Source: a virus
Length of the DNA: 43,554 bases
Direction: 5' to 3' (one strand)
IMG/VR virus record: IMGVR_UViG_3300028920_000013
Coordinates: 1-43,554 of that record
Within the stretch, counting starts at the first letter, position 1. The number at the start of each line of letters is the position of its first letter. The notes under the pieces are model-generated. The model did not search any database. It was not told the origin of the DNA and saw only the letters and a list, made by a program, of their open reading frames with translations. Shown here in pieces: positions 3,217 to 33,454 of the stretch. The position numbers and the translations under genes were made by a program.

Positions 3217-3245
3217 TTGACAATCTTTATATAATACTATATACT
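3217..3245 (+). promoter_or_regulatory. Main early promoter
   Basis: TTGACA (3217-3222), a 17-bp spacer and TATACT (3240-3245), with a start near 3252. It faces the early gene array and is followed by the first copy of the conserved leader (3266-3287). It is one of the best sigma70 matches in the window. Confidence 0.75.
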
Positions 3246-3265: not shown

Positions 3266-3287
3266 TAGTCCTTAACAATAAAACATT
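3266..3287 (+). repeat. Early leader, copy A
   Basis: TAGTCCTTAACAATA followed by AAACATT and ATG. This is the first copy of the leader found before most early genes. It has no Shine-Dalgarno sequence. Confidence 0.75.
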
Positions 3288-3473
3288 ATGCTAAAAGCAA
3301 TCATTATTTGTGCCGTCCTTGCCTTGACTTTAACCGCAGTTATCGTTGGTTATAACAGGCAAGAAATCAAAGAATGTTATCAATGGCAAAAACAAGCCAA
3401 GCAATACCCAAATTTTTACCTAACCGATTGGCAAGCTAAACAATGCCAACGTCACAACATAATCATTGATTAA
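3288..3473 (+). CDS. Small membrane protein, Cys/Trp-rich tail
   Basis: A 61-residue protein with one hydrophobic segment (residues 2-21), which may be a signal anchor or membrane span. A polar tail with spaced Cys, Trp and Gln follows (ECYQWQKQAKQYPNFYLTDW, then QAKQCQRHN). I have the impression of similar short proteins in Patescibacteria and their phages, but cannot confirm this. It is the first gene behind the early promoter, so it is probably made at once after infection. The function is unknown; a membrane-associated host-takeover or anti-defence role would be speculation. Confidence 0.65.
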   Translation: MLKAIIICAVLALTLTAVIVGYNRQEIKECYQWQKQAKQYPNFYLTDWQAKQCQRHNIIID

Positions 3474-3488
3474 AGATTGACTTCGGCG

Positions 3489-3542
3489 CCGGGCTTTTTG
3501 TCCCGGTTCCGACGCTAGTCCTTAACAATTAACTAAAAATGT
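3489..3542 (+). repeat. Stem-loop plus early leader, copy B
   Basis: CCGGG (3489-3493) pairs with CCCGG (3502-3506); the leader with the 16-nt core GTCCTTAACAATTAAC (3518-3533) follows, then TAAAAATGT and ATG at 3543. This copy is a perfect complement of 7369-7384. Confidence 0.8.
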
Positions 3543-3923
3543 ATGTATTTATCAAAACAACATTTTATTGACGTTCTAGACTCCGCCGGGTTTGACCAGT
3601 CAAATCTAAAAGAGTTTGACTACGCCGAACGTTTGAGTCCCGGGGCTTACTTGTTTAGTTCCGGTTCACATTTAGCCGTTATTTATCAATCAACCGTTGT
3701 ATTTTACGGTGAGATTATAAACGTTGACGGTAAACAGAAAAAAGTTATTAAATTAAACTCTGGCGGGTGGTTTACGGTTACCACTAAAAAATGGCAAAAT
3801 TACGCGCTTGACCTGTTTAATACCGGGTGGCATATTTACCAGAAAAATTTTAGCTGGTATATCACCGACGGCGACAAGTTCAACCGCGAATATACCGAAA
3901 ACGTCCTAACCTTGACCGTTTAG
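3543..3923 (+). CDS. Conserved-looking early protein, 126 aa
   Basis: A soluble protein of 126 residues, rich in Tyr, Phe and Trp, with an alternating beta-type pattern (SHLAVIYQSTVVFYGEII) and a C-terminal NTGWHIYQKNFSWYITDG stretch. It looks like a compact single domain of the kind found in many phage early regions. I do not recognise a catalytic motif and do not assign a function. The second of two nearby ATGs (3543) fits the spacing of the other leader copies. The base composition is richer in GC than in the later early genes, which suggests separate acquisition. Confidence 0.7.
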   Translation: MYLSKQHFIDVLDSAGFDQSNLKEFDYAERLSPGAYLFSSGSHLAVIYQSTVVFYGEIINVDGKQKKVIKLNSGGWFTVTTKKWQNYALDLFNTGWHIYQKNFSWYITDGDKFNREYTENVLTLTV

Positions 3924-3935
3924 GCTTAACCGTTG

Positions 3936-3985
3936 CCCCGGGTTCCCGGGGTTCCGGTTAGTCCTTAACAATAACAAAAAACATT
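3936..3985 (+). repeat. Stem-loop plus orphan early leader, copy C
   Basis: CCCCGGG (3936-3942), TT and CCCGGGG (3945-3951) form a very stable hairpin. The leader TTAGTCCTTAACAATAAC and AAAAAACATT follow. Where copies A and K have ATG, this one has ATC (3986-3988), and the frame after it closes after five codons, so the leader has no gene behind it. Confidence 0.75.
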
Positions 3986-4193
3986 ATCCGAATCGTTCCT
4001 TGATAAAATAACAAGGGTTAAACGGGTCAGCGATTAACTTCGCTACCTGTTGCCTGTCCTTATTTGTGCCAAAGGATATCCTAAAACTACTAACATAATT
4101 GGCGTAGTCAATAAGGGCAGACAATAGGTAATAACTAACTAAAAAACTATGGACAAAAAAATTAAATAACGCTAAAAGAATCGGCGCCAACAT
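3984..4193 (-). pseudogene. Reversed, probably decayed gene in an early cassette
   Basis: A 69-codon frame on the opposite strand fills almost exactly the coding slot between leader C and leader D. Its C-terminal half (FRISFGTNKDRQQVAKLIAD, then PFNPCYFIKERFG) reads like a genuine protein with phage-like codon use. Its N-terminal half is hydrophobic. A plus-strand copy of the leader end (TAACTAAAAAACTATGG, 4134-4152) followed by a six-codon frame MDKKIK overlaps it. The simplest reading is a gene body that was turned around and truncated, leaving leaders without genes. It could also be a real minus-strand gene, though it has no promoter. Confidence 0.35.
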
Positions 4194-4212
4194 TAAGAGA
4201 ACGGCGCTAAAA

Positions 4213-4237
4213 CCTTAACAATTAACTAAATAAAATT
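4213..4237 (+). repeat. Early leader, copy D
   Basis: CCTTAACAATTAAC followed by TAAATAAAATT and ATG at 4238. GC-rich GGCGC elements upstream (about 4182-4207) may form the stem of this cassette. Confidence 0.65.
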
Positions 4238-4441
4238 ATGGACAAAGAAAAACTAATTGACCACTATGTTAATTTATACCGACAACTATGGGGTAGTAAT
4301 TCTGGACTATGTACTGAAACACTAAAACAAATGGGGGAAAAAGAACTAAAAAAGGAAATTAAGGAAATGAAACAGCATATTAAAGACAAAAATCCTTATT
4401 TTCCTGCCTTTGAAACTTTTTACCAAAACAAATCTAAATAA
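4238..4441 (+). CDS. Small charged helical protein, 67 aa
   Basis: Lys- and Glu-rich, mainly helical protein (MDKEKLIDHYVNLYRQLWGS at the start) with no membrane segment. Residues 32-50 could form an amphipathic helix. The short peptide MDKKIK at 4150 resembles its first residues and may be a broken copy. No function is recognisable. It lies in the early array between leader D and a shortened leader before 4457, so it is probably co-expressed with both neighbours. Confidence 0.6.
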   Translation: MDKEKLIDHYVNLYRQLWGSNSGLCTETLKQMGEKELKKEIKEMKQHIKDKNPYFPAFETFYQNKSK

Positions 4442-4456
4442 TTAACTAAAAAAACT

Positions 4457-4624
4457 ATGTTATTAAAACAAGTTTATAAATGCGAAAATTGCCAAAAAGA
4501 TAACATTGATGTTTTGGAAATCTTCCCCGGCAATTTATGCCTTGAATGTTACGAAAAGAAAATGAATAAAATACCACTAGAGAAATTAGAAAAATCTGAC
4601 TTTAAAAAGGCAATCAATCTTTAA
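4457..4624 (+). CDS. Small zinc-ribbon protein, 55 aa
   Basis: The frame starts at ATG 4457 after AATTAACTAAAAAAACT, a shortened leader copy, and ends at TAA 4622-4624. Two Cys pairs, YKCENCQK (Cys9, Cys12) and NLCLECYE (Cys28, Cys31), are set for one zinc ion, as in small zinc ribbons. The rest is Lys-rich. Such small phage proteins often bind nucleic acid or a host protein, but no target can be named. Confidence 0.65.
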   Translation: MLLKQVYKCENCQKDNIDVLEIFPGNLCLECYEKKMNKIPLEKLEKSDFKKAINL

Positions 4625-4637
4625 GCATTGACGCTAG

Positions 4638-4701
4638 CCCCGGACGATCCGGGGACGGCGCTAGCGCTTAAGCTAGTCCTTAAAAATTAACTAATAAAAT
4701 T
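4638..4701 (+). repeat. Stem-loop plus early leader, copy F
   Basis: CCCCGGA-CGA-TCCGGGG (4638-4654), a second palindrome GCGCTAGCGC, then AGCTAGTCCTTAAAAATTAA and ATG at 4702. The stop codon upstream lies in TTTAAG, which can pair with CTTAA of the leader and bring the stop and next start together. Confidence 0.75.
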
Positions 4702-4884
4702 ATGGCAAAAATAGTATTTATTTTACCCGGCGGATTTTCAGAACCAGCAGAAGCAAATTTAGAAATGTTTGGTAAAAAATGGAATAATAAAAAAATAGAT
4801 AAATTAACAGCGAAATTTAAAAGCAATCAATATGTTATAATTTATCAAAAAGACGAAGGTAAAATATGGAAAAGAATTGATTAA
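4702..4884 (+). CDS. Small early protein, 60 aa
   Basis: A 60-residue basic protein with a beta-type start (MAKIVFILPGGFSEP) and a Lys/Asn-rich middle, ending KDEGKIWKRID. No membrane segment or metal site is visible. I do not recognise it. The gene has the full leader in front and a long GC-rich spacer behind, so it forms a self-contained cassette of the early array. Confidence 0.55.
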   Translation: MAKIVFILPGGFSEPAEANLEMFGKKWNNKKIDKLTAKFKSNQYVIIYQKDEGKIWKRID

Positions 4885-5001
4885 CTAACTTTAAGAATTG
4901 ACTAGACGGCGCTATTTGTGGAAGCCCTGACCGGTTACAACTTCTGCCAAGCGATTAACCGGGCGCCGTTTAGCTAGTCCTTAAAAATTAACTAAAAAAC
5001 T
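4885..5001 (+). repeat. Long stem-loop plus early leader, copy G
   Basis: ACGGCGC (about 4906) and GCGCCGT (about 4964) can pair across a 50-nt loop. The leader GCTAGTCCTTAAAAATTAAC, AAAAAACT and ATG at 5002 follow. The long loop is unlike the tight hairpins of the other copies, and I see no frame in it. Confidence 0.65.
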
Positions 5002-5223
5002 ATGGAATACAAAAAAGACGAAATAGCAAATGATCTATACGATCTAATAAAAGTTTGTTTTTTATCAGACAAACAGGTTGATAATTGGGCGAGATTATCA
5101 AGAAAACACGCTGAAATCTCAAAGCAAAATATGAAAAAGCATTTTGGTAGAAAGTATATTGAAGTAAATGGAAATAAAATAGTAATAGGAAAAAACAAAA
5201 AAACTACAATAACAATTAACTAA
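5002..5223 (+). CDS. Small basic early protein, 73 aa
   Basis: A Lys-rich 73-residue protein, helical in the first 55 residues (LYDLIKVCFLSDKQVDNWAR) with a short basic beta-like tail. Its charge suggests nucleic-acid contact, but no known motif is visible. Its stop is only six bases from the next start, and the end of its own coding sequence supplies the leader of the ArdA-like gene (ACAATTAACTAAAAAACT). The two genes are therefore translated from one message and probably coupled. Confidence 0.6.
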   Translation: MEYKKDEIANDLYDLIKVCFLSDKQVDNWARLSRKHAEISKQNMKKHFGRKYIEVNGNKIVIGKNKKTTITIN

Positions 5224-5229
5224 AAAACT

Positions 5230-5517
5230 ATGGAAGACAAAGAAAAATGGGAAGATCAAATTGATCAACACGGCGAAGACGCCGTCAATGCCTATATTGA
5301 AATCGTTGGAAAAGATTATGCCGAGCCTGACGACTTTGACGAAGCCTACCAAGGACAATGGGACAGCGACGAAGATTTTGTACAAAACTTGTTGGAAAAC
5401 ACTGAAACGATCCCGGCTGACTTGCCGGCTTATATCTATATTGACTGGGAAGCAACAGCCCGAGATGTAATGATGGACTACTCCGAAGACAATGGGCATT
5501 ATTTTAGGAACCTTTAA
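5230..5517 (+). CDS. ArdA-like antirestriction protein, short form
   Basis: A strongly acidic 95-residue protein. The C-terminal region DLPAYIYIDWEATARDVMMD, followed by YSEDNGHYFRNL, matches the end of ArdA proteins as I know them (Tyr/Asp-rich, a YxDWEA-RD segment, then a G-Y-F-R-like ending). ArdA mimics bent DNA and blocks type I restriction-modification enzymes. Full ArdA is about 165 residues, so this is roughly one C-terminal domain; phages with such short forms may keep only the DNA-mimic part. Early expression behind the 5002 gene suits a function needed as soon as DNA enters. The family call is good; activity of the short form is inferred. Confidence 0.7.
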   Translation: MEDKEKWEDQIDQHGEDAVNAYIEIVGKDYAEPDDFDEAYQGQWDSDEDFVQNLLENTETIPADLPAYIYIDWEATARDVMMDYSEDNGHYFRNL

Positions 5518-5529
5518 GCCCTGACGGTT

Positions 5530-5593
5530 CCCCGGATCAATTCCGGGGTTCCGCTAGTTCTTAAGCTAGACCTTAACAATTAACTAAAAAACT
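5530..5593 (+). repeat. Stem-loop plus early leader, copy I
   Basis: CCCCGGA-TCAAT-TCCGGGG (5530-5548), then GCTAGTTCTTAAGCTAGACC, TTAACAATTAAC and ATG at 5594. CTTAAG occurs twice here, as if part of a leader had been duplicated. Confidence 0.8.
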
Positions 5594-6259
5594 ATGGAAG
5601 ACGTATTGAAGACAATCAATTATAAAGGTTGTCAAATCAAGATCTACCAAGATTTTGACTGTCAAAGCCCGGACGAATGGGGTAATAACGCGCTTTTCTT
5701 AACCGGCTGGCACCAAAGAGAATTTTGGGTTAACCGGGACGGATTTATGCCTGAAGACCTAGAAGACGCTGATCGTCAAAAGGAAATCAAAAAAGACTTT
5801 TACGTCTTTATGCTTGACGCCTACATACACAGTGGCGTAGCCTTGTCACTGACTACCGAGGGAATGCAATGTCCTTGGGACACTAGCCACAATATAGGCG
5901 CCATTTTCGTCAAGAAGTCTGAAGCTAAAACTAGAAAAGAAGCTGAAAAGCTAGCCCGGGGCTTACTTGAAAACTGGAACGACGCATTGTCCGGGAACGT
6001 TTATGGCTTTGTTACTGAAGATAAGAACAGCGAAATCATTGACTCCTGTTGGGGTTTTTACGGTGATCCCGAAAAGTCAGGCTTGATTGATGAAGCAAAA
6101 TCGTCCATTGACTACTTCGTCAAGTCAACAAAACCGTTTACTGTCAATGTTGATATTGAAGTTTTGGCAAAAGATCCGGCTGACGCCAAAGACAAAGCTA
6201 GCAACTTGCTAGGTGGCAAGATCAAAAAGTTTTGGGTTGGTGAAGTTACAAAGGTTTAA
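5594..6259 (+). CDS. Conserved phage/plasmid early protein, 221 aa
   Basis: The largest protein of the early array. The middle part (DAYIHSGVALSLTTEGMQCP, WDTSHNIGAIFVKK) and the later part (ENWNDALSGNVYGFVTED, then DSCWGFYGD) resemble a family I have seen often in phages and plasmids of Gram-positive bacteria, whose function is not established. The last 45 residues (KPFTVNVDIEVLAKDPADAK) look like a separate small beta domain that is also present at the end of the next gene. It is acidic overall. A role in host interaction or anti-defence would fit its place beside the ArdA-like gene, but this is inference. Confidence 0.7.
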   Translation: MEDVLKTINYKGCQIKIYQDFDCQSPDEWGNNALFLTGWHQREFWVNRDGFMPEDLEDADRQKEIKKDFYVFMLDAYIHSGVALSLTTEGMQCPWDTSHNIGAIFVKKSEAKTRKEAEKLARGLLENWNDALSGNVYGFVTEDKNSEIIDSCWGFYGDPEKSGLIDEAKSSIDYFVKSTKPFTVNVDIEVLAKDPADAKDKASNLLGGKIKKFWVGEVTKV

Positions 6260-6321
6260 GACCTGACCTTTACCTCGGACGCCGGGGTTTAGGCTAGTCC
6301 TTAAAAATTAACTAAAAAAGT
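6260..6321 (+). repeat. Stem-loop plus early leader, copy J
   Basis: CCTCGG-ACG-CCGGGG (6273-6287, one G-U pair), then GGCTAGTCCTTAAAAATTAA, CTAAAAAAGT and ATG at 6322. TTTAAG at the stop codon is complementary to CTTAA in the leader. Confidence 0.8.
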
Positions 6322-6672
6322 ATGATCAAAGAAAACCTTTGTGATAACTGCGGTAAATATCCGGTTACCACAAAAGACTGTCGGGAAGATGATTGTGGCG
6401 GGTATTCTAAAGTCTATTCTTGTCGGTATTGCGCCGGGCTTAATGACAAATGGCATTATAGAGTCCGGGCTGAAAACCTTGATCCAAAAGAAGTTTTAGG
6501 TGTGGAAGATGAAGCAGACACTTGGACAATTACCGTAAAGATGACTGTCTTTGCCGGGGATATGGACAAGGACAACGTAATAAGCAACGCCGAAAGCCTA
6601 CTGCCTGACTTGCTAGACGGCACTGACTTTACTGGAATTGCGGTTATTGACGCTAAAAGAGATGAAGTTTAA
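6322..6672 (+). CDS. Cys-rich early protein, 116 aa
   Basis: The N-terminal 45 residues contain Cys pairs in ENLCDNCGKYP and VYSCRYCAG with further Cys between (DCREDDC), which should form one or two zinc sites. The C-terminal part (WTITVKMTVFAGDMDKDNV, ending TGIAVIDAKRDEV) is an acidic alpha/beta domain resembling the end of the preceding 221-residue protein. It looks like a zinc-binding module joined to a domain shared by neighbouring early proteins. The function is unknown. Confidence 0.65.
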   Translation: MIKENLCDNCGKYPVTTKDCREDDCGGYSKVYSCRYCAGLNDKWHYRVRAENLDPKEVLGVEDEADTWTITVKMTVFAGDMDKDNVISNAESLLPDLLDGTDFTGIAVIDAKRDEV

Positions 6673-6734
6673 GTCCTGACGTTTACCTCGGGATCCGGGG
6701 TTTACGCTAGTCCTTAATAAATAACAAAAACATT
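6673..6734 (+). repeat. Stem-loop plus early leader, copy K
   Basis: CCTCGG-GAT-CCGGGG (6686-6700), then GCTAGTCCTTAATAAATAAC, AAAAACATT and ATG at 6735. It shares the CTGACGTTTACCTCGG arm with copy J, so these two copies are the closest pair. Confidence 0.8.
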
Positions 6735-6917
6735 ATGAAAAAAGTTTTTAGAGTCCACTATTATTTTGACGGATCCGGTTATGTTGATATTGAAGCCGAG
6801 TCAAAAGAACAAGCCGAAGAAAGATTTTTTGATGGTGATTTTGAAAATGAAGAAGAATGGGGCGATCAATACAACATTGAAAACGTCACCGAGCCATTAG
6901 AAGAAAAAGCACACTAA
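6735..6917 (+). CDS. Small acidic protein, possibly DpnD/PcfM-like
   Basis: A 60-residue protein with the pattern VFRVHYYFDGSGYVDIEAES followed by KEQAEERF and an acidic tail. A short beta hairpin with an 'ESKEQAEE' helix is typical of small DpnD/PcfM-type proteins of phages and mobile elements. That family has no settled function. It is the last gene behind a leader of the standard type before the next promoter. Confidence 0.5.
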   Translation: MKKVFRVHYYFDGSGYVDIEAESKEQAEERFFDGDFENEEEWGDQYNIENVTEPLEEKAH

Positions 6918-6927
6918 CGAAATGAGC

Positions 6928-7024
6928 TGGGGCTTAATTGTCCCGGCTTGTTAAAAAGAAAAGAGAATCAGCGCTAGAAAAACCGCTAAATTAAGTACTA
7001 TAAGTCAATAATATTGGGTTTTTC
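6928..7024. terminator. Hairpins closing the first early unit
   Basis: AGCTGGG and CCCGGCT (about 6929-6953) form a GC-rich stem. Further on, GAAAAACC (6977-6984) pairs perfectly with GGTTTTTC (7017-7024), leaving U-rich and A-rich flanks. One or both probably end transcription from the 3217 promoter just before the new promoter at 7055. Confidence 0.45.
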
Positions 7025-7054
7025 AAATGTGACTAAACTGTTGATAAAATATAC

Positions 7055-7083
7055 TTGACAACACTATATAATTAGATTAAAAT
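7055..7083 (+). promoter_or_regulatory. Second early promoter
   Basis: TTGACA (7055-7060), a 17-bp spacer and TAAAAT (7078-7083), with a start near 7090. It is followed by a shortened leader, TCTAATCCTTAAC and TAAAAAACT, before ATG at 7113. Confidence 0.75.
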
Positions 7084-7112
7084 AATAGTATCTAATCCTT
7101 AACTAAAAAACT

Positions 7113-7298
7113 ATGTTCAACAAAAAAAAGACTTCAAAACCTAATATCCAAATCTATTGTAAGGTTAGTGTCAACCACACAATAGATCAAGAAGACTTTT
7201 ATTCTGTCAAAACCTTTGACGACTTCAAGTCGGCTTTGAAATATCTTGAAGAAAAGGAAAGTATTTTTCCGGCAATGCCGGAAGACAAGCAATCTTAA
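7113..7298 (+). CDS. Small early protein, 61 aa
   Basis: Basic N-terminus (FNKKKTSKPN) followed by a small alpha/beta pattern (IQIYCKVSVNHTIDQEDFYS) and a Lys/Glu helix. It is not recognised. Its reading frame ends inside a perfect 12-bp hairpin (7283-7311), with the TAA in the loop. The 3' region carries the antisense copy of the early leader, so this message may be as important for its RNA tail as for its protein. Confidence 0.55.
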   Translation: MFNKKKTSKPNIQIYCKVSVNHTIDQEDFYSVKTFDDFKSALKYLEEKESIFPAMPEDKQS

Positions 7299-7311
7299 TG
7301 ATTGCTTGTCT
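7283..7311 (+). terminator. 12-bp hairpin with the stop codon in its loop
   Basis: AGACAAGCAATC (7283-7294), loop TTAAT and GATTGCTTGTCT (7300-7311). The TAA of the 7113 gene lies in the loop. There is no U-run, so it may protect the 3' end or be a processing site and need not terminate transcription. Confidence 0.6.
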
Positions 7312-7402
7312 AGCCTGACGTTAAAAGACTTGCGATCGCGAGCAACATAAATCAGTCGCATAGTTTATGTTAATTGTTAAGGACAATCTCTTGTCGGGCT
7401 AG
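7310..7402 (+). ncRNA. Multi-hairpin RNA with an antisense copy of the early leader
   Basis: An outer stem CTAGCC/GGCTAG (7310-7315 with 7397-7402) encloses a CTTGCG/CGCGAG hairpin, AACATAAA/TTTATGTT (7344-7351 with 7364-7371) and ATTGT-TAAGG-ACAAT (7373-7387). Bases 7369-7384 (GTTAATTGTTAAGGAC) are the exact reverse complement of the leader core at 3518-3533 and pair with the other leader copies with few mismatches. The loop TAAGG would be free to meet CCTTA of the leaders. It is probably transcribed from the 7055 promoter as a 3' UTR. Confidence 0.5.
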
Positions 7403-7431
7403 GCAAATAATTATTAAGTAGATTATGAAAT

Positions 7432-7641
7432 ATGAAAACGATCAGCGTAAAAACCCGGGCTGAAAAAGTAAAGTTTATTGCTGAAGAACTATTAGCAAAT
7501 CCTTATCACCCAGAAAAAGACAATTTAAGCGACGTTATGGCTGATGTTGAGCAGTGGAGTGACGACGACATTGATTTATTTTTGTTTCAAATGCTGGACG
7601 GTGATATTAGTCAAGACGAAATTGCTAATGAACGAAATTAA
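7432..7641 (+). CDS. Small acidic helical protein, 69 aa
   Basis: Begins MKTISVKTRAEKVKFIAEEL and ends with an acidic segment (WSDDDIDLFLFQMLDGDISQ). Helices predominate and there is no metal site or membrane span. It is not recognised. The conserved early leader is missing here, and base composition becomes AT-rich from this gene on. The stop is one base from the chosen start of the nuclease gene. Confidence 0.55.
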   Translation: MKTISVKTRAEKVKFIAEELLANPYHPEKDNLSDVMADVEQWSDDDIDLFLFQMLDGDISQDEIANERN

Positions 7642-7642
7642 A

Positions 7643-8179
7643 ATGTTTAATGTTGAACCAACAACCGAGCAAAAAAAATATGCTTGGCAACAGGTTACTG
7701 ATTATAATTTTGGTAAAAGAGGTATTTTTGACGGCAAAAAAAAACAACAATATGCTGGTATTTTAGCTCAAACAGTAATGGCAGATAATATCGAATACCC
7801 AAGACCTAATGGAAAAGACGGATTTGACAATGGAATTGACTTTATTATTCATAATATAAAATGTGATTTAAAAGTTACCGGTAGAGAATATTATATGAAA
7901 AATCATTATTCTCATAACATTGTTGCTAGTCAATTAAGCTATGAAACAGAAATTTACATACTAGGATCAGTTAATTACAAAACTGGAATAATAACTTACT
8001 GTGGTTTAATTAGAAAAGACCAAATGAAAAGATATTTTCACCCAGCCGGAACAATTAGAACAAGAGATGACGGCACAACATTTACTTACAAAGTAGCGTC
8101 TTATGACGTTCCCCAGTCAGATTTACACCAAATAAAAAATTGGCTTGATATAATTTGGGGAGTTGATCAAATATTATAA
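7643..8179 (+). CDS. PD-(D/E)XK-like nuclease
   Basis: A 178-residue protein with the order GFDNGIDFIIHN (Asp66) and then CDLKV (Asp75, Lys77), the D-x(n)-DxK core of the PD-(D/E)XK nuclease fold. A preceding helix (GILAQTVMADN) is in the right place for the first core helix. The fold includes restriction enzymes, resolvases and recombination exonucleases, and I cannot tell which this is. Start at ATG 7643, one base after the previous stop; an in-frame ATG at 7628 overlapping the upstream gene is also possible. It may degrade host DNA or help recombination along with the RusA-like protein. Confidence 0.6.
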   Translation: MFNVEPTTEQKKYAWQQVTDYNFGKRGIFDGKKKQQYAGILAQTVMADNIEYPRPNGKDGFDNGIDFIIHNIKCDLKVTGREYYMKNHYSHNIVASQLSYETEIYILGSVNYKTGIITYCGLIRKDQMKRYFHPAGTIRTRDDGTTFTYKVASYDVPQSDLHQIKNWLDIIWGVDQIL

Positions 8180-8194
8180 ATAAACTTTAATAGT

Positions 8195-8527
8195 ATGACT
8201 AAAACCTATTCACTACAACGAACAATCAATCTTAAACGGATAACAGGGATTGATATGTTTGAAAACACTAAATTTACGGTCGAAGGTTGCGCTTCACCTA
8301 AAGAAGCTGAAAAAGAGATTGAAGATTGGGTTGAAGATTATATTACCCGAAAGAAAAAAGAATTTGAAGCCAAGAAAAATGAAATTCTAGAAGCTAAAAA
8401 AAATAAACCACCTTTTGAAGGCAATGAGTTTAATAAAAAAGACTCAATCGTTAGCGAAGCACAACGCGCCAGACATTTAGCTAAAGGTGGAAAAGATTAC
8501 GAACCTAAAAAAACAATTAAAATCTAA
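8195..8527 (+). CDS. Lys/Glu-rich early protein, 110 aa
   Basis: The N-terminal 50 residues look like a small beta domain (SLQRTINLKRITGIDMFENT). A long charged helix (residues 50-80) and a basic end (KGGKDYEPKKTIKI) follow. It is not recognised. Its last 20 bases and the following start region are duplicated at 8920-8952, as if the next gene had been inserted with a short duplication. Confidence 0.55.
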   Translation: MTKTYSLQRTINLKRITGIDMFENTKFTVEGCASPKEAEKEIEDWVEDYITRKKKEFEAKKNEILEAKKNKPPFEGNEFNKKDSIVSEAQRARHLAKGGKDYEPKKTIKI

Positions 8528-13274: not shown

Positions 13275-13454
13275 ATGGAACCAAAAGAAACTACTACTCC
13301 TAAATTAAAACAAATTTTTAGTGAAGCAATTATCACTCCAGTTAAAAATGGATTTATTGTAACATTTCAACCTTCAATTGGAAATAAAAGTGTTTACATT
13401 GCAAAAACATTAGCTGAAGCTAAAACATTATTAGAAAAATTATTAATTAAATAA
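13275..13454 (+). CDS. Small protein, 59 aa
   Basis: From ATG 13275, after TTAACTAAAAAATT, a leader end resembling the early array. It reads MEPKETTTPKLKQIFSEAII and then a small beta-alpha unit (GFIVTFQPSIGNKSVYIAKT). Such units occur in many small phage proteins of unknown role. Spacing to both neighbours is tight. Confidence 0.55.
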   Translation: MEPKETTTPKLKQIFSEAIITPVKNGFIVTFQPSIGNKSVYIAKTLAEAKTLLEKLLIK

Positions 13455-18083: not shown

Positions 18084-19607
18084 TTAATATAATTGTTTAC
18101 CTTCCTTGGGGTATGATTGATCTGTTTCCCCAGCGATTATATTATCAGGAAGAGTAGTCGTCGTTGAAGTTGACGTTGTTGTAGTTGTAGTAGTAGAAGT
18201 AGAACTTGAAGTAGAACTTGAAGTAGAACTTGAAGTAGTGGTAGTAGATGTGGTAGTAGATGTGGTACTAGAAGTAGAACTAGATGTAGATGAACTTGTT
18301 GAACTTGAAGTAGTAGTAGTTGAAGTGGTACTAGAAGTTGATGTTGAAGTAGATGTAGAGCTAGAAGTAGTAGTAGTTGAAGTGGTACTAGAAGTTGAAG
18401 TAGATGATGATGTAGTAGTTGTAGTAGTAGAACTAGATGTTGAACTAGAAGTGGTAGTAGTTGAACTAGAAGTGGTAGTAGTTGAACTAGAAGTAGAGCT
18501 AGATGTAGTAGTAGTAGAAGTAGAACTTGAAGTAGATGATGTAGTAGAACTAGAAGTTGTAGTTGTAGTACTAGAAGTAGATGTAGAAGTTTCAGAAAGT
18601 GATGTTGAAGAACTTGTAGTTGTAGTAGAACTAGAAGTAGTAGTAGTAGAACTAGATGTAGAGCTGGAAGTAGTAGTAGTTGAACTTGAACTTGAAGTAG
18701 TAGTGGTTGAACTAGAAGTTGAACTAGATGTAGTTGTAGTTGAACTAGAAGTAGAGCTAGATGTAGTAGTAGTAGAAGTAGAACTTGAAGTGGTAGTAGT
18801 TGTAGTTGAACTAGAAGTGGTGGTAGTTGAACTAGAAGTAGAGCTAGATGTAGTAGTAGTAGAAGTAGAACTAGAAGTGGTAGTAGTTGTAGTTGTACTT
18901 GAAGTAGAAGTAGTAGTTCCAACAAAAGGCACTGTACTTGAATAAGCTAAACTTCCACTTAATACGTCTAAATCATTATTATTTGAAGTTTCGTCATCAT
19001 AGCTATCATTGAATTTCCAATATCCAACTAATCCAGTTGCACTACCAGATATTTCTTGTTCATAATTGTCACTAATTTCAGTTCCACTCCTAATATCATT
19101 CCATATTCTAACTTCATCTATTAATCCATCAAAATAATATCTACTATTTACTTGGTCAGCACCAATATACATATGACCATCAGTAACAGTCCTCATTGCT
19201 GCTGCATTTTGTAAAACATTTGTATTAGCTACTGAACTACCATCAACATAAGTAACAAAAGTTTTTGCAGAAACATCAAATGAAGCTGCAAGATGATACC
19301 AAGTAGAAGTTGAACTAACAACTGCTGAATCAGTTAAATTTAAAGTAGCATTTCCAGAACTATCTTGATAATAAGATTGTAATTTATTTTCAGATGATAA
19401 TGCTAATGAATAACATAAATCATCACCAGAAGAATCTTTTTTAACAACCAACTGCATATTGTCACCATAAACACTTGGTAGAGTTTCAAGATAAACCCAA
19501 CACTCAATAGTAACATCGCCCCCGACATCTAGTCCAGTTGAATCAGTTTCAGCTATACCAGCATACTGACTGGCAGCCGTCATATCTAATGACTTCGTAT
19601 TTGCCAT
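18084..19607 (-). CDS. LamG-domain virion protein with a long Ser/Thr tract
   Basis: Residues 1-225 are a LamG/concanavalin A-like lectin domain (DVTIECWVYLETLP, TWYHLAASFDVSAKTFVTYV, GLIDEVRIWNDIRSGTEISD, GLVGYWKFND). Residues 231-485 are almost only Ser and Thr in uneven blocks. A short end, DQSYPKEGKQLY, follows. The lectin part may bind host glycan. The Ser/Thr tract is mucin-like and would be an excellent carrier for O-linked sugars, and glycosyltransferase genes start six bases downstream. A short Thr/Ser tract of the same kind ends the 32873 protein. The glycosylation is inferred. Confidence 0.75.
   Translation of the reverse strand: MANTKSLDMTAASQYAGIAETDSTGLDVGGDVTIECWVYLETLPSVYGDNMQLVVKKDSSGDDLCYSLALSSENKLQSYYQDSSGNATLNLTDSAVVSSTSTWYHLAASFDVSAKTFVTYVDGSSVANTNVLQNAAAMRTVTDGHMYIGADQVNSRYYFDGLIDEVRIWNDIRSGTEISDNYEQEISGSATGLVGYWKFNDSYDDETSNNNDLDVLSGSLAYSSTVPFVGTTTSTSSTTTTTTTSSSTSTTTTSSSTSSSTTTTSSSTTTTTTSSSTSTTTTSSSTSSSTTTTSSSTSSSTTTTSSSSSTTTTSSSTSSSTTTTSSSTTTTSSSTSLSETSTSTSSTTTTTSSSTTSSTSSSTSTTTTSSSTSSSTTTTSSSTTTTSSSTSSSTTTTTTSSSTSTSSTTSTTTTSSSTSTSTSTSSTTSTTTTSSSTSSSTSSSTSSTTSTTTSTTTTSSSTSSSTSSSTSTTTTTTTSTSTTTTLPDNIIAGETDQSYPKEGKQLY
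18153..18917 (-). repeat. Low-complexity Ser/Thr repeat tract
   Basis: About 765 bases of imperfect short tandem repeats of ACT, ACA, AGT and TCA-type codons (read on the minus strand). Irregular block lengths point to slippage or unequal recombination. Long open frames in other readings of this stretch are by-products of the repeat. Confidence 0.9.
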
Positions 19608-32872: not shown

Positions 32873-33454
32873 CTATGTAGTCGTTGTAGAACTAGAAGTT
32901 GATGTAGTAGAAGATGAAGTAGTTGTAGTAGAACTTGAGGTTGTTGTTGTACTTGTGGTCGTAGTTGTGGTTGTAGTAGTTGTGGTTGTAGTAGATGATG
33001 ATGTTGAAGTAGTTGTAGCTTCAAATCCAGTCACAACATATTCTACGGTCACAAACAGCCCTGAAGTAGTTGCAGTTCCAGTTTCAGCTATCTGAATTTC
33101 CAAAACATCATTTTCACGAAGATAAGTGTTTTGGTCTGGAGCAATATTGTAGGCAGTATCAGCAGTAATAGCAGTATCGTAATTAAAATTGTCAGCAGTT
33201 GACAATAAATTATCGTCCTGCGTTGCATTCCATAATTGAATTGACCAATAATTAGAAGTATCAACTGCAATTGTAGTATCAACTGTCAATGTAACAGCAA
33301 CAATTTTAATATCGCTAGGCGCTACTAAAAGAAACCTATTAGCTGAAGCTGATAAATCTCCAATATTTTGTGTGACTACTCTTGTTTCGTCAGCAGTATC
33401 TCCAATAAATCCCGGATAATAATCTTCCATTGTTCTATTCTTTTTTACGGGCAT
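32873..33454 (-). CDS. Capsid-adjacent beta protein with a Thr/Ser tail
   Basis: Residues 25-145 form a beta-sandwich-like domain (FLLVAPSDIKIVAVTLTVDT, SNYWSIQLWNATQDDNLL, DVLEIQIAETGTATTSGLFV). The last 48 residues are only Thr and Ser, the same style as in the 18084 protein. Directly downstream of the major capsid gene, it is a likely decoration protein whose tail could project from the capsid and carry glycan. It may be highly expressed. Confidence 0.65.
   Translation of the reverse strand: MPVKKNRTMEDYYPGFIGDTADETRVVTQNIGDLSASANRFLLVAPSDIKIVAVTLTVDTTIAVDTSNYWSIQLWNATQDDNLLSTADNFNYDTAITADTAYNIAPDQNTYLRENDVLEIQIAETGTATTSGLFVTVEYVVTGFEATTTSTSSSTTTTTTTTTTTTTSTTTTSSSTTTTSSSTTSTSSSTTTT

Follow-up and report, generated by a model that had tools for sequence, protein, structure and literature searches.

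An inverted copy of an early leader and its start codon lies in a predicted intergenic stem-loop at the edge of a phage small-gene array

Introduction

Small early genes of phages often lie in fast-changing arrays, and the RNase III hairpins of phage T7 have stems of about two helical turns that are broken by internal loops. RNase III cuts the early polycistronic mRNA of T7 at five sites (PMC4858673). The c4 antisense RNA of phage P1 and its relatives is a structured phage RNA with segments complementary to the start region on a phage message, whereas the OOP RNA of lambdoid phages is antisense to a phage message and encoded opposite its own target (PMC12197685). In S. aureus, the 3' UTR of icaR pairs with the 5' UTR of its own mRNA (SD and UCCCCUG motif), and RNase III is involved in this system (PMC3868564).

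The locus described here is an array of small early phage genes with a structured intergenic element at its edge. As in the T7 early mRNA (R1.1 and others), several hairpins lie between small early genes on one message, and their stems are about two helical turns long and interrupted by internal loops. Unlike the T7 hairpins, each array stem reaches from the stop codon of the preceding gene into the leader of the following one; moreover, cleavage of the array hairpins, themselves predicted, is putative. The intergenic element resembles c4 in being a structured phage RNA with segments complementary to the start region on a phage message. It differs in that it has no Rfam match, that one element faces many leaders, that the copy includes the start codon, and that its processed RNA is putative. 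As in icaR, a downstream untranslated segment is complementary to a translation start region, but the element here matches the leaders of other genes, and these leaders are SD-less. Should our element act on a phage message as an antisense RNA, it would be like OOP in that respect; the copy described here (7359-7384), however, lies away from the leaders.

Results

Phage genome and leader family

The window analyzed is the whole 43,554-nt stretch of DNA, a circular, complete-looking phage contig whose ends are joined by a 127-bp repeat. Its early genes run rightward (3.2 to 14.6 kb) and its structural genes leftward, and an SPP1-type portal and a terminase were identified in the structural region. 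No near match to the genome was found among 50,697 phage records, and no tRNA was found in it. Proteins of the structural region carry long Ser/Thr repeat stretches (18084-19607 and 32873-33454). A related portal and terminase are present in a genome bin of ~0.8 Mb, which hints weakly at a small-genome host lineage. In this bin, the 16S gene match (L040) spans ~1.8 kb, so that some 290 bases seem to be inserted in the gene.

Complete members of the leader family occur only at 3268-7110 and follow the pattern CCTTAA(C/A)AATTAACTAAAAAACT, then ATG. In the downstream half (TTAACTAAAAA..ATG), the leader is similar to the starts of many genes in the phage, for example at 13275, which are A-rich and SD-less. 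The upstream half is linked at seven places with a hairpin between genes. The array is headed by a plus-strand promoter (TTGACA-17-TATACT, 3217..3245, 11/12 consensus), and the first leader (3268..3290, plus strand) stands right behind it. This leader and the one at 7097, both promoter-adjacent, are without a stop-codon-rooted hairpin. The leader at 3961 has lost its start codon (CATTATCC). Directly 3' of it lies a second strongly structured plus-strand stretch (3984-4150, z -5.3 to -6.2), perhaps the remnant of a gene or a noncoding RNA. Within the array, the 95-aa protein of 5230-5517 has an ArdA antirestriction match (Pfam E 1.2e-8), and the protein of 3543-3923 matches Kyano_Gp96 (PF23790, Kyanoviridae) and phrog_554; the terminase of the phage that encodes it has only distant similarity to those of cyanophages.

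Stop-codon-rooted hairpins between the array genes

In each of the seven hairpins, the 5' arm begins in the stop codon of the preceding gene (UUUAAG) and the 3' arm ends in a CUUAA at the leader. The stems share a common plan: UUUAAG and a 2x2 loop are followed by two 3-bp segments that an A/C mismatch separates, then by a second 2x2 loop, a segment of about 7 bp, and a small loop, amounting to ~23 bp in typical members. On the plus strand, the hairpins comprise E3464 (3470..3525, from stop codon to CCTTAA, with the leader at 3518 next), E3914 (3919..3968, followed by the leader without start codon), E4616 (4620..4671), E4887 (4890..4984, leader at 4977), E5509 (5513..5564), E6251 (6255..6304, leader at 6297), and E6664 (6668..6717, leader at 6710). 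The CUUAA is that of the leader itself except in E4616 and E5509, which are built on an extra upstream CUUAA, the leader having a second CCTTAA at 4676 and 5569, respectively.

When the arms, delimited by hand, were swapped among the seven copies, none of the 5040 possible assignments had a better total duplex energy than the matched arms. Because a GC-rich foreign arm is sometimes a slightly better partner for a single arm (e.g., E3464 with E3914), the claim that the arms are matched rests on this total energy. A compensatory change distinguishes E6251 from E6664 (CCU/AGG versus CGU/ACG). We also considered whether G-U pairs in the seven stems favor the plus strand and rejected this, as the strand difference was small and inconsistent. 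Interrupted stems of about two helical turns, of the kind known from T7, are thus found between the early genes in seven copies, their structure kept as judged by the arm swap (1 of 5040). The original prediction had a loop pairing with the CCTTA of the leaders; in most array members, this CCTTA is itself predicted to be paired at the base of the intergenic hairpin, a feature that had been overlooked.

An inverted leader-plus-start-codon copy

The 16-nt segment GTTAATTGTTAAGGAC (7369..7384, plus strand) was first reported as an antisense core, the exact reverse complement of 3518-3533 and a near complement of other leaders. Sequence comparison confirmed the exact match and revealed 1-2 mismatches at 4211, 4676, 4977, 5569, and 6297; the leaders at 3268, 3961, and 6710, not listed originally, match with 2-3 mismatches. 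No leader is matched exactly in antisense over more than these 16 nt, and outside this site the real genome reaches at most 13. Since a match of at least 16 was reached in 8 of 300 whole-genome dinucleotide shuffles, the 16-mer by itself is only mildly unlikely.

The complementarity is real and longer than noted, the whole leader with its ATG having been overlooked as the copied unit. The minus strand from 7384 to 7359 reads GTCCTTAACAATTAACATAAACTATG, and the array consensus is GTCCTTAACAATTAACTAAAAAACTATG. This 26-nt copy (7359..7384, minus strand) includes the start codon and contains one 2-nt gap and one mismatch; the distance from CCTTAA to the end of ATG is 24 nt compared with 26 in the consensus. 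Its local alignment score of 20 was reached in none of 400 genome, 3000 array-region, and 5000 local shuffles. Chance complementarity in AT-rich sequence, which the shuffles that reach the 16-mer would allow, is highly improbable, as the full copy with its start codon was never reached and sits at the edge of the array itself.

The main alternative offered originally was a double-stranded DNA site at which a protein binds the leader core in both orientations. Such a site would fit the finding that, within 4 kb, the 16-mer occurs in either orientation. However, nearly all copies, the inverted one included, have retained their position with respect to an ATG of the strand that they lie on (the exception being 3961, which has lost its ATG), and the A-rich start region that makes up the downstream half also occurs outside the array, at 13275. 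A DNA site therefore fits less well, and we consider it very unlikely.

The intergenic element on the plus strand

The copy lies between a 61-aa gene with its own short leader at 7097 (7113..7298, plus strand) and the next plus-strand gene, of 69 aa (7432..7641). The promoter claimed for the 7113 message is a good sigma-70-type match (TTGACA-17-TAAAAT, 7055..7083, plus strand, 11/12 consensus). The region had been described as a 3' UTR; it is not a terminal one, since it sits between these two genes, and no terminator-like site was found between them. The plus strand is predicted to form a stop-codon-rooted stem-loop (7294..7418, MFE -42 to -46 kcal/mol, z about -5 to -6) that extends from the stop codon of 7113 to shortly before the start of 7432. 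A long outer stem (7294-7320/7392-7418) encloses inner hairpins at 7329-7342, 7344-7371, and 7373-7387, and the antisense core spans parts of the second and third of these and is mostly paired. The loop TAAGG (7378-7382) had been proposed to be free, but only its AAG (7379-7381) is predicted to be open, with U7378 and G7382 mostly paired (unpaired probabilities 0.35 and 0.19); the third inner hairpin thus offers about 3 free loop bases, not 5. At the end of the 7113 gene, the perfect 11-bp hairpin GACAAGCAAUC-UUAAU-GAUUGCUUGUC (7284..7310, plus strand), which is partly formed in the longer fold, and the lower outer stem are mutually exclusive. A fold specific to the plus strand was rejected: the minus strand with slightly different ends reaches about the same z, so that the fold alone gives no strand preference. 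The 7369-7384 segment is probably transcribed on the plus strand within a structured RNA.

If so, RNA of 7294-7418 made from the 7055 promoter might act as an antisense RNA, in trans or on the same transcript, pairing with free array leaders and repressing or retuning them jointly. Like c4, the segment is complementary to a phage message at a site where translation starts; the 16 to 26 nt of complementarity take in both leader and start codon in most genes of the array. Phage precedents are c4 and OOP RNA (PMC12197685). Core-only duplex energies with the leaders are -15 to -26 kcal/mol, compared with -4 to -18 for other starts, and the plus-strand RNA of the element is strongly structured. Its core, however, is buried in two hairpins, and the CCTTA of most leaders is predicted to be paired at hairpin bases. 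For the folded element, the net predicted interaction with the leaders, computed without kissing loops, is -3 to -10 kcal/mol, which overlaps the controls (shuffled means -3.3 to -5.5; unrelated starts -2 to -8.3). The Rfam search gave nothing above noise and no known antisense family, and C4 antisense RNA had no match at the gathering threshold, nor at E up to 10 in 7240-7440. The complementarity behind the trans-antisense interpretation therefore stands, but the trans step is weakened by the buried core, the paired leaders, and the modest net energies. Antisense action is possible, most of all for an element that has been opened or processed; the models do not strongly predict it, and on balance we find it unlikely. 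It is doubtful, too, that one structured RNA from the gap between 7113 and 7432, bearing the inverted copy of the shared leader and start codon, would repress all of the early array as one common switch once hairpin processing has freed the leaders.

The minus strand

On the minus strand, a hairpin GACAA-GAGA-UUGUC (7382..7395) is predicted directly upstream of the inverted leader. In the shorter minus-strand fold, the whole leader is unpaired between this GAGA-loop hairpin and the ATG; the array leaders likewise sit behind hairpins. The ATG opens a 75-aa ORF (7134..7361, minus strand) that is probably not coding. Its codon score of -0.35 bits per codon falls in the range of shadow frames, it has no PHROG or Pfam match (one sub-threshold match only), and no homologs of it were found; neither coding-like codon use nor homologs thus mark 7134-7361 as protein-coding. 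Some real array genes, 3543 for example, also score low, so the codon test is not final.

A working minus-strand start, whose transcript would use the inverted leader for the 75-aa ORF or a shorter peptide or would be cis-antisense to 7113, is suggested by the leader, the ATG, and the open leader structure behind a hairpin, along with weak promoter-like sites upstream on the minus strand (7438-7410 and 7451-7422). These sites, however, match at only 9/12, a level common in shuffles, and the ORF, besides its shadow-like codon score and lack of homologs, lies mostly opposite the plus-strand gene 7113-7298. We regard such a start as unlikely.

Related loci

Searching IMG/VR for the leader or for the hairpin motif returned no matches. 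The 221-aa and 211-aa early proteins, used as queries, found distant relatives or none, without leaders, and a search with only the terminase gave no hits among viral or genome contigs. A three-way terminase alignment used as the query yielded 21 related loci. The nearest relative is L018, with a terminase identity of 69%. One of them, L027, encodes homologs of genes 3288 (37%) and 5594 (45%); a hairpin starting TTTTTAAG lies just past the stop of the first gene, and a CCTTAAAAACAAAAATATG leader precedes the second. It thus has one CCTTAAAAA leader behind a hairpin, while the array and the antisense copy are absent. L012 and L032 have a single comparable leader each. No antisense copy of the locus's own leader above chance was found in L027, L032, or L012, and no relative carrying leader and antisense copy together was found among the related-terminase loci. 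That L027 and L032 keep the CCTTAA leader without such a copy speaks against an antisense RNA; yet these relatives also lack the array, so the missing copy weighs little against that idea.

In the same three relatives, a TGGCAAGTGGTAAG-like motif (TGGCAAGCGGTGATG in L032) lies just upstream of an early gene start on the minus strand (L027 ~7980-8000, L012 ~830-880, L032 ~8190-8210); it was not seen before the array genes of the phage studied here.

Discussion

The explanation we favor, which we hold to be about evenly poised between right and wrong, is that 7359-7384 is an inverted copy of a duplicated hairpin-leader-ATG module within an intergenic stem-loop, that the hairpins serve processing or insulation, and that the complementarity to the leaders is mainly a by-product. 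The array is built of repeated modules, each with a stop-codon-rooted hairpin, a leader, an ATG, and a small gene. Most likely, an inverted duplication or flip of one module gave rise to the leader-plus-ATG unit at 7359-7384, which would now be part of the intergenic stem-loop between 7113 and 7432. Within the polycistronic message of the early genes, the hairpins are probably intercistronic processing or insulation elements that may be cut by an RNase III-like enzyme, and every small gene would thereby receive a 5' leader of its own that resembles the others. That 7369-7384 is complementary to the leaders would then be mainly a by-product of inversion, with no main role in trans.

Several observations argue for this inverted-module reading. 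The inverted copy has an ATG at leader-like spacing, its leader is predicted to be open behind a hairpin on the minus strand and buried on the plus strand, the seven hairpins share a plan and their matched arms are the best of 5040, and the 7294-7418 element, too, runs from a stop codon to a point just short of the following gene. A flipped gene-start module explains the ATG-containing minus-strand copy at least as well as the antisense reading does. For the processing part, an RNase III gene was found in the ~0.8 Mb bin that holds a related phage contig, and T7 offers the precedent (PMC4858673).

Against inversion, no intermediate or relative found shows it, and the start codon is without an evident gene, since the minus-strand ORF is not coding-like. 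The 16-nt core is also still perfect although flanking bases have changed, which could reflect selection on the core. Against the hairpin part stand E4616 and E5509, with their use of an upstream CUUAA in place of the leader CCTTAA.

If the inverted copy does have antisense activity, many leader-sharing genes would come under the control of one RNA. As a building block, the module of hairpin, standard leader, and ATG could allow small early genes to be gained, flipped, or lost while even expression is kept.
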